Assembly (NCBI GenBank): GCA_025062195.1
Contig: JANXAS010000015.1
Coordinates: forward strand, 1-52,268
Direction of reading: 5' to 3'
DNA length: 52,268 nt
Origin: Armatimonadota bacterium
Lineage (GTDB): Bacteria > Armatimonadota > Fervidibacteria > Fervidibacterales > Thermosaccharophagaceae
Shown here: positions 30,971 through 34,713 of the stretch, piece after piece
Numbering within the stretch: position 1 is the stretch's first letter
How the letters are laid out: every line of letters begins with the position of its first letter
The notes under the pieces: model-generated
Seen by the model: the letters and a program-made list of their open reading frames with translations, nothing else
Databases searched by the model: none
Told to the model about the DNA's origin: nothing
Position numbers and translations under genes: made by a program

Positions 30971-32794
30971 GTGAAATGCAAAGGCTGTGGCGGTGAGAAT
31001 AGAGATGAAGCAAAGTTCTGCATACATTGCGGCGCTCGGCTGTGCGAGCTTGCGGAAGGAGAAGTTGGTGAGGGAGAGAAAGAGGCGATTCAAGCACCGC
31101 TGTATGAAGCCATGCATGAAGCAGGGGAGGAGCATGCCGCTGAAATTGTGGGTGAGCCTGAAGGTGAACATACGGAGGCGCAAGTAGCAGTTGGCGCCGT
31201 TGGTGTGGAGGAGGTAAAGAGCGAATTTGAAGCGCTGCCTGAAGGTGCCCTTATAAGCGATCGGAGGTATGAGCTGCGCAGCCTGTTGCGAGAAACCAGC
31301 AGCTTGAACATTTACGAAGCGCACTCAATGGAGCGTTTTAAGCGTTGTCCAAGTTGTGATAAGTTGTCAATGCCAGAACATAACTTCTGCGACAATTGCG
31401 GTGCAAGCATTGAAGGCGTCCCATCAACCAAAGTGCTTTTCACCGTCCTTGAGGTTCAAGAGGTGGATGAAAAAAAACTGGATGAGATCGCCGAAATGTG
31501 CGATGCTTCTGAGGGGGCATTGCCAAAGGTGCATGAGAAATTCGTCTATGAGCCGTATGAGGGTAGCGTTCGCAGTTACCTTGTCCTTGAGCGCTTTGAT
31601 GAATGCCCGCTAAGTGAGATAGATATTTCAACGATGCGTCTTGATGCGTTGCTCATTGTTGCGCTTAAGCTGCTCAAGTTTGTGCAGTGGCTTAGCGAAC
31701 ACTCATACCATGTGCCGAGATTGATTGAGCAGGTAACCGTGAAGGACGACAGCCTCGTCCTATTCAAGTTTGAGGCGTTACAAGAGGCAATGTCCCGTGA
31801 GGAAGCCATCAGAAGCATGCTTCCACAAGCTCGTCGTTGGTTGATTGAAGCATTGGGGCGTTTCGCTGAGGTTAAGCAATCAACCATTGAATCTCACATG
31901 GCACTTGGGTTAAAAGAGCGCTTTGAGTCATCCGAGGAGCCAATGCATGCCGATGAATTAAGTGGTCAAATTGAGGCTGCGTTGAACGAACTTCTTGGAA
32001 CTGTAGCACTTGAATATGCAAGTGCTGGCGCAACCGATATGGGCAAGATGCGCGAGTTGAACGAGGATGGCTTCATCATTTGGGAGCTAACAGGCTTTCA
32101 ACACCCAAAGCCATTCCGAATCGGGCTGTATGCTGTTGCGGACGGGATGGGTGGGCACCGAGCTGGTGAAGTGGCATGCAAGCTTGCCCTTGACACGCTG
32201 CTTGATAGCATTCAAGAGGCTATATCAAGTGAGTTGAAAAAGGGTGTCGAACGGCTCCACAAGGTCAATTGGGGGGATGTGTTGAAGACAGCATTTGAGC
32301 GCGCTAATAGGGCTGTCCAGGAAAATGCTGTTGGATTAAGGAGCGATATGGGCACAACAATGGTTGCTGCACTTGTCTTTTGCAACCGAGCGTATATTGC
32401 AAATGTTGGTGATAGCAGGGCTTATATCTTTCGGGAGGCAAAGCTTAAACAGATTACCAAAGACCATTCGCTTGTGCAGCAGTTTGTTGATATGGGGAAG
32501 CTTACACCTCACGAGGCGAAGGTTCATCCACAGCGAAATATAATTTACCGAGCCATTGGCTTGCGCCAACATATTGAAGTTGACCTGTTTGAGGAAATGC
32601 TCAGCGTCGGAGATAAACTCCTGCTTTGCTCTGACGGGCTGTGTGATATGGTTGAGGACGAGGAGATTGAGAAAGTCTTACTTACAGAGTGCGACCTGAA
32701 TGCAGCTTGCACTGAACTCATTAGGCGAGCTAATGAATATGGCGGCATGGATAACATCACAGTTGTGATTGTTGAAGCTAAGCAATCAAGCTGA
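30971..32794 (+). CDS. Zinc-ribbon / pseudokinase-like / PP2C phosphatase fusion
   Basis: A 607-residue cytoplasmic protein. A zinc ribbon lies at residues 3-20 (C3, C6, C17, C20). A second four-cysteine ribbon is at C126, C129, C140, C143. The stretch SDRRYELRSLLRETSSLNIYEA just before it reads like a Ser/Thr kinase N-lobe without its glycine loop, and YLVLERFDECPLSEI through HVPRLIEQVTVKDDSLVLFKFE reads like a kinase hinge and catalytic region lacking HRD and DFG. Residues 350-605 are a complete PP2C phosphatase with metal-site motifs RELNEDGF, VADGMGGH, NVGDSRAY, CSDGL and MDNIT. It should dephosphorylate phospho-Ser/Thr; the front parts may regulate or target it. GTG start after GAGAGGTG. 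No partner kinase is nearby. Confidence 0.85.
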   Translation: MKCKGCGGENRDEAKFCIHCGARLCELAEGEVGEGEKEAIQAPLYEAMHEAGEEHAAEIVGEPEGEHTEAQVAVGAVGVEEVKSEFEALPEGALISDRRYELRSLLRETSSLNIYEAHSMERFKRCPSCDKLSMPEHNFCDNCGASIEGVPSTKVLFTVLEVQEVDEKKLDEIAEMCDASEGALPKVHEKFVYEPYEGSVRSYLVLERFDECPLSEIDISTMRLDALLIVALKLLKFVQWLSEHSYHVPRLIEQVTVKDDSLVLFKFEALQEAMSREEAIRSMLPQARRWLIEALGRFAEVKQSTIESHMALGLKERFESSEEPMHADELSGQIEAALNELLGTVALEYASAGATDMGKMRELNEDGFIIWELTGFQHPKPFRIGLYAVADGMGGHRAGEVACKLALDTLLDSIQEAISSELKKGVERLHKVNWGDVLKTAFERANRAVQENAVGLRSDMGTTMVAALVFCNRAYIANVGDSRAYIFREAKLKQITKDHSLVQQFVDMGKLTPHEAKVHPQRNIIYRAIGLRQHIEVDLFEEMLSVGDKLLLCSDGLCDMVEDEEIEKVLLTECDLNAACTELIRRANEYGGMDNITVVIVEAKQSS

Positions 32795-33071: not shown

Positions 33072-33079
33072 GAGGTGAG
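33072..33079 (+). promoter_or_regulatory. Ribosome binding site that decides an AUC start
   Basis: GAGGTGAG at 33072-33079 is the strong form used throughout the window. It contains an in-frame TGA (33076-33078), so translation cannot begin upstream. The next in-frame codons are GAA, GAC, then ATC at 33085, spaced five bases from the site; the only canonical start downstream, TTG 33121, is more than 40 bases away. Confidence 0.7.
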
Positions 33080-33084
33080 AAGAC

Positions 33085-33798
33085 ATCTTTCCGATCAAGG
33101 ATGATGTCCGTGCGAGGCGGTTGCCCATCGTTAACTACATCATAATTGCAGCCAATGTTGCTGCTTACATTTACGAGGTTTCCTTAGGTGCTGACCTTGA
33201 GAGGTTTATTAAAGAAGTGGCAGTTGTGCCTGCTGAGTATATCGGGTTCCTAAGTGGCTACAATGTTCCGCTCCAAAAGCTATTGACTGCGCCTTTTGCA
33301 TCCATGTTTCTGCACGGCGGCTTCTTGCATCTGATTGGCAACATGTGGTTCCTTTACATCTTCGGTGATAATGTTGAGGACAGAATGGGGCATTTGCGTT
33401 ACTTTCTGTTTTACCTGTTTTGCGGGTTAGCTGCAACTGCAGCACACATCCTCATATCGCCAACATCTCCTATCCCAATAATTGGCGCAAGCGGTGCTAT
33501 CTCCGGAGTCCTTGGTGCCTATCTTGCGTTGTTTCCGAGGGCAAGCATTCTTACGCTTGTCTTTTTCTTTTACTTCTTTGAAATTGTTGAGATACCAGCA
33601 CTTGTTTATTTGGGACTGTGGTTCGTAATACAGCTTAACTCCGGCATATTACAGACACTGCTAAGTCCAAGTGAGGTTCAGGGTGGTGTAGCATGGTGGG
33701 CGCATATCGGAGGGTTTGTAGCTGGACTTGTATTGCAAAGGCTTTTTCGTGAGGAACCAAGGGCACCAAGGTATAAGGAACTCTTCTACCCGTTTTAA
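33085..33798 (+). CDS. Rhomboid family intramembrane serine protease, apparent AUC start
   Basis: About 237 residues and six transmembrane helices. The catalytic serine is in GASGAISGVLGAY and the catalytic histidine in WWAHIGGFVAGLVL, both in membrane helices. HGGFLHLIGNMWFLYIFGDNVEDRMG is the family L1 region. Family members usually begin with M-(F/I)-P-(I/L)-(K/R)-D-D before the first helix; here FPIKDDVRARRLPIVNY is encoded directly after an ATC codon that sits where the initiator should be. TTG 33121 would delete this conserved segment and has no ribosome site. It likely cleaves single-pass membrane proteins. Followed 45 bases later by a second membrane protease. Confidence 0.85.
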   Translation: MFPIKDDVRARRLPIVNYIIIAANVAAYIYEVSLGADLERFIKEVAVVPAEYIGFLSGYNVPLQKLLTAPFASMFLHGGFLHLIGNMWFLYIFGDNVEDRMGHLRYFLFYLFCGLAATAAHILISPTSPIPIIGASGAISGVLGAYLALFPRASILTLVFFFYFFEIVEIPALVYLGLWFVIQLNSGILQTLLSPSEVQGGVAWWAHIGGFVAGLVLQRLFREEPRAPRYKELFYPF

Positions 33799-33843
33799 AG
33801 TTGTGTGCCACTTTTCAAAACGAAAATTAAGGGGGTGAATCCA

Positions 33844-34713
33844 ATGGAGATATTAATAGCGATTCTTTGGGCACTGCTTATAGGCTCGGCGTTCTTGCCG
33901 ATGATACAACAACGCATGCTTGAAGCTGCAAGGTTGCGCCTAATGGAAAAACTGGAAAAGAAAAGGCGCTCAAGGGTGATAGCACTTATACACAGGCAGG
34001 AACAGATGACACTGCTTGGCTTTCCAATTATGCGTTACATAACGATTGATGATTCCGAAGAGGTATTGCGGGCTATAAGGCTTACACCTGCAGATACACC
34101 AATAGACCTGATCTTGCATACTCCGGGTGGGTTGGTTTTAGCCGCTGAGCAAATTGCATTTGCCCTTAAAAAACACCCCGGCAAGATCACTGTCTTTGTG
34201 CCTCATTATGCGATGTCTGGCGGGACTTTAATAGCTCTTGCTGCTGATGAGATATGCATGGATGAGAATGCAGTTCTCGGACCTGTTGACCCACAAATAG
34301 GCACTTGTCCAGCTGCGAGTATACTTCGCGCTGTGAAGATGAAGAGCGTCAACGAGCTTGATGACCAGACACTTATAATGGCAGACATAGCTGAGAAGGC
34401 TTTGAATCAAGTGCGCCAATTTGTTGCATGTCTCCTTGGAGACAAAATGGACGCAGAGCGGGCGCAGCAAATTGCCGAGGCGCTAACCGATGGGAGATGG
34501 ACTCACGATTACCCAATAACATGTGAGCAGGCAAAGGAACTTGGCTTGCCAATTACAACGGATATGCCTGAAGAAGTCTACATGCTTATGAACCTTTACC
34601 CGCAACAGCTGCAGCGCCGTCCAACAGTCCAATACATACCGCTGCCTTATCAACCACATCCTATGCGCAGGGATAGAACTGCTATTGGTTTCACAAAAGA
34701 TAGTGATGGATGA
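33844..34713 (+). CDS. SDH-family ClpP-fold membrane serine protease
   Basis: About 289 residues. One N-terminal membrane helix (ILIAILWALLIGSAFLPM) is followed by a basic coiled stretch, then a ClpP/crotonase-fold protease domain: IDLILHTPGGLVLAAEQIA forms the oxyanion side and VPHYAMSGGTLIALAADEI holds the nucleophile serine. ENAVLGPVDPQIG is typical of the SppA-like SDH family. It probably degrades membrane or signal peptides. The frame opens at 33805, but ATG 33844 has AAGGGGGTGAA upstream. Same strand and close to the rhomboid gene, so the two proteases may share a transcript. Confidence 0.85.
   Translation: MEILIAILWALLIGSAFLPMIQQRMLEAARLRLMEKLEKKRRSRVIALIHRQEQMTLLGFPIMRYITIDDSEEVLRAIRLTPADTPIDLILHTPGGLVLAAEQIAFALKKHPGKITVFVPHYAMSGGTLIALAADEICMDENAVLGPVDPQIGTCPAASILRAVKMKSVNELDDQTLIMADIAEKALNQVRQFVACLLGDKMDAERAQQIAEALTDGRWTHDYPITCEQAKELGLPITTDMPEEVYMLMNLYPQQLQRRPTVQYIPLPYQPHPMRRDRTAIGFTKDSDG

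Follow-up and report, generated by a model that had tools for sequence, protein, structure and literature searches.

AUU and AUC starts are very rare, with the IF3-autoregulated infC gene as the classic case, and to our knowledge conserved natural non-canonical starts have been demonstrated experimentally in only a few bacterial genes. Streptomyces sigR starts with GTC or GTT behind AGGAGGTG, and its repression by IF3 has been shown experimentally (PMC5472188). The S. aureus genes cvfC1 and ccpN start with AUU and AUA, respectively, downstream of extended Shine-Dalgarno (SD) sequences, and their yield is reduced (PMC13009471). Here we compare with these systems a rhomboid protease gene located in the window, the whole 52,268-nucleotide stretch of Armatimonadota DNA that was analysed, on the forward strand of which all features described below lie. 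The gene appears to begin with a genuine AUC codon at position 33085, a reading of the sequence to which we assign a probability of roughly 0.88.

Initiation site of the rhomboid gene and its orthologs

The rhomboid gene (33085-33798) comprises 237 codons and a stop codon (33796-33798), and its product matches Pfam family PF01694 with an E-value of 1.6e-35 and a score of 122.9 bits, against a curated cut-off of 22.6. The predicted catalytic residues Ser136, in a GASG motif, and His207, in AHIGG, are invariant among the three members of the order that could be compared, as is the conserved asparagine N86. A search of the PDB at E 0.001 returned no sequence match to the rhomboid, and no solved structure was found. 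Two rhomboid paralogs in the same genome have ATG starts.

For the SD of this cistron, GAGGTGAG (33072-33079), pairing with an anti-SD assumed to be standard was calculated at -11.8 kcal/mol. This SD contains an in-frame TGA (33076-33078), which excludes an N-terminally extended frame and leaves two open codons upstream of the putative initiation codon, ATC (33085-33087), and the five bases between the SD and this ATC are filled by AAGAC (33080-33084). This arrangement of SD, stop codon and ATC, which had been pointed out in the initial annotation, was confirmed in the sequence. The codons directly after the ATC read as FPIKDDVRARRLP, and the proposal that this segment is a rhomboid N-terminus agrees with the orthologs that start at position 1. 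Searches for an Rfam family and for a sigma-70-like promoter gave no match, and mRNA structure around the start was no stronger than in shuffled sequences in any of the three order members.

Outside the order, 106 orthologs were aligned, and 102 of these have a canonical codon at the exact initiator position (ATG in 83, GTG in 12 and TTG in 7). Three further orthologs with apparently non-canonical starts proved to be misalignments with an ATG one or two codons upstream, while the sole real exception, L108 from Pelotomaculum sp. UBA10960, carries GAAGGAGGGGTTACC-ATA. Within the order, four other genomes were compared, the window's genome being the only one of its family in this set. Two of them contain a clear rhomboid ortholog (L005 and L006, from another family, 61-63% amino acid identity), and no usable rhomboid ortholog was found in the remaining two, which are 61-63% complete. 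The start region of L005 reads AAGGGGGGAGACAGCG-ATT-TTT-CCG-TTA-AAG-GAC-GAC and that of L006 GAGAGGAGGTCGCTGGTC-ATT-TTA-CCG-TTG-AAG-GAT-GAT, with GGGGGGAG and GAGGAGGT as their respective SDs. The aligned initiator is thus ATC, ATT and ATT in three genera of one order, represented by only three genomes, all of them drafts in many contigs, and the three sequences form a single clade with an SH-aLRT value of 99. Neither L005 nor L006 has a plausible canonical in-frame start. The frame of L005 stays open for 56 codons and runs into the upstream gene, its ATG codons lying 39 and 50 codons up; that of L006 is open for seven codons, and its TTG at codon 4 and its CTG, two codons before the ATT, are both poorly spaced from its SD. 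Conservation of an AUH codon across the order suggests a weak start that evolution has retained, and speaks strongly against a sequencing error.

Candidate non-canonical starts in the genome and in a second lineage

About 7.5% of the window's genome (257 kb, 183 coding ORFs) was scanned blind for near-cognate codons that follow a strong SD, precede the first canonical start and face no competing canonical site, with the final sorting done by reading. This left only two ORFs that combine a strong SD with AUH, namely the rhomboid gene and infC, which has ATC behind GGAGGTGA. A third candidate, C33:78, resembled a SurE motif at first sight but was discarded; its sequence reads like a DegT-type aminotransferase truncated at the contig edge, and the SurE of this genome lies on another contig. 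Across the order infC starts with ATC, ATC, ATT and ATC (genomes G000-G003) behind GGAGGTG-type SDs, and in the Pelotomaculum family it starts with ATT or ATC wherever the start is readable, indicating that both groups make use of AUH codons as starts. The infC genes of other members of the phylum (L114, L116, L118, L119, L124 and L125) also appear to begin with ATC or ATA.

The second lineage, the Firmicutes order of Pelotomaculum, was sampled with L108, 21 further genes from the search of its family and 68 more from the wider order, L145 being the same gene as L108 and counted once. At the rhomboid initiator position, 17 genes of this order carry ACG, 5 carry ATA and 1 carries ATT, the others having TTG, GTG or ATG. 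Control neighbours at the same loci start canonically, cobB with ATG in 15 cases and GTG in 3, and tsaD in all. The ACG genes (L147, L149-L153, L155, L158, L159, L164, L168, L169, L171-L173, L176 and L184) have strong SDs and mostly lack an upstream canonical in-frame start. A natural ACG start conserved in bacteria would be very unusual, if real, and a literature search of incomplete coverage returned no account of SD-preceded ACG starts occurring naturally in bacteria. At several Pelotomaculum-family loci among L148-L165 a lipase-like neighbour, encoding an ILFVHGMG protein, also seems to be without a canonical start, with ATA, ATT or TTT around the place where one would be expected.

SD strength, computed throughout against the assumed standard anti-SD, differed between start codons, with median energies of -4.1 for ATG, -8.95 for GTG, -10.25 for TTG, -11.7 for ACG, -12.7 for ATA and -13.2 for ATT, and a value of -11.8 for the single ATC. 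The 26 non-canonical sites have stronger SDs than the 169 canonical ones (p 1e-11, a statistic that ignores relatedness and taxon), and the same comparison inside the Firmicutes order, 22 sites against 67, gave p 3e-5, again with relatedness ignored. The three members of the window's order have energies of -11.8, -12.0 and -13.2 kcal/mol, to be read against an ATG median that comes from orthologs of other taxa. On a quick tree built without codon 1, in which some branches are long, the canonical or non-canonical label requires five changes, at least three of them forced by starred branches, the window's order appears as one starred clade, and the start codon itself (ATG, GTG, TTG, ACG, ATA, ATT or ATC) changes at least 26 times across the rhomboid family.

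By analogy with infC, sigR (PMC5472188) and the S. aureus genes (PMC13009471), the AUC codon may lower expression of the rhomboid protease and be sensed through IF3. The strong SD would set the initiator tRNA on a codon mispaired at its third position, with Met as the presumed first residue, and IF3 would destabilise this mispaired complex, such that protease yield would be low and would rise when IF3 discrimination is weak. This regulatory half of the interpretation has one rival, in which the AUC start is real and has arisen by near-neutral drift under a strong SD, with no regulatory role. The wide variation of start codons over the family tree and the association of strong SDs with weak start codons are in line with such drift, but the order has retained AUH throughout, the 257-kb genome sample yields no outstanding case besides infC and the rhomboid gene, and one mutation would restore a canonical start; we regard drift as possible, though the less likely account. 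That start-codon attenuation has repeatedly targeted rhomboid genes, with lineages in two phyla independently adopting AUC/AUU or AUA/AUU/ACG behind strong SDs, is a proposal for which we see the odds as even.

Other readings of the ATC codon

Translation from the TTG at 33121-33123, or from another internal codon, would leave the conserved upstream codons untranslated. This TTG is the first canonical in-frame codon, the point at which the ORF listing begins and the choice of gene callers. It lies 41 bases after the SD, too distant to be served by it, and a start there would cost the protein the conserved FPIKDD...R segment; the initial annotation had noted the 41-base distance and this loss, and our analysis bears both out. 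L005 and L006 have TTT at the aligned position, with no canonical codon there, and the best SD energy of any canonical start within the rhomboid ORF is -7.0, versus -11.8 at ATC 33085 (anti-SD assumed standard). Codons 2-12 match the N-terminus of orthologs starting at position 1, and between the order members they keep an FP/LP-x-KDD motif while undergoing synonymous changes, which fits a translated sequence. On this evidence TTG 33121 was rejected as the main start, and we consider internal initiation improbable.

Still harder to credit is that the ATC reflects an error of sequencing or assembly, or that ATG mutated to ATC recently in this genome alone. The genome is a draft in 170 contigs and ATC is one base from ATG, but the remainder of the initiation site is intact, and the three order members form their clade at 61-63% identity. 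A check for ATG in sister genomes, set beforehand as the refutation of an AUC start, found ATT at the aligned codon in both L005 and L006 instead. Of the two explanations originally put forward, a true AUC start is favoured by this run of ATC, ATT and ATT through one clade, and an ATG-to-ATC change confined to this genome is disfavoured by the ATT of its relatives. In the least credible scenario, translation would begin at ATG 33068, upstream and out of frame, and then shift into the rhomboid frame. This scenario draws on the presence of that ATG in another frame, but L005 and L006 have neither a corresponding ATG nor a shared slippery site, and the SD lies downstream of ATG 33068.

Gene context and relation to known systems

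The gene upstream of the rhomboid, encoding a zinc-ribbon PP2C phosphatase (30971-32794), is not conserved beside it; in L005 and L006 the upstream gene encodes an M24-type peptidase, recognised by reading the sequence, and not a PP2C phosphatase. Downstream, a gene for an SDH-type (ClpP-like) serine protease (33844-34713; Pfam PF01972, E 6.8e-127) begins 45 nt after the rhomboid gene with a canonical ATG and an SD of its own, AAGGGGGTGA (33829-33838). Of 141 rhomboid loci examined, 16, from several phyla and with L005 among them, have such a gene alongside, at a spacing within 5-135 nt. This spacing suggests that the two genes are co-transcribed, with the SDH-type protease as second cistron. 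Given an AUC start on the first cistron, the second would be translated normally from its own SD and ATG, and the weak first and normal second start may yield unequal amounts of the two proteins, by analogy with sigR-rsrA (PMC5472188).

If the proposal of recurrent attenuation in two phyla is true, an intramembrane protease would join infC in the IF3-controlled set, and ACG would become a conserved natural bacterial initiator. Were AUC/AUU truly conserved in one order, and ACG/AUA in a phylum far from it, the part that weak starts and IF3 play in membrane-protease dosage could be tested directly. Gene callers that assume ATG, GTG or TTG would then cut short many rhomboid proteins at the N-terminus or put their start in the wrong place. 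Our literature search, incomplete in its coverage, returned no paper tying rhomboid genes to non-AUG starts.

Among the known systems, infC resembles the rhomboid gene in having an AUH initiator behind a strong SD that is conserved across species, and differs in its autoregulatory loop, whereas the rhomboid product is a membrane protease without such a loop. Streptomyces sigR (PMC5472188) shows a comparable wobble drift, GTC/GTT there versus ATC/ATT here, together with a strong ribosome-binding site, and, like the rhomboid gene in its presumed operon, it is a first cistron followed by a second cistron with its own ribosome-binding site; its start is GTC and not AUH, and IF3 repression has been shown there, whereas the rhomboid case is known from sequence. 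The S. aureus genes cvfC1 and ccpN (PMC13009471), established by initiation-site profiling and reporters, are other genes in another phylum, but they share with the rhomboid gene a conserved AUH start behind an extended SD.
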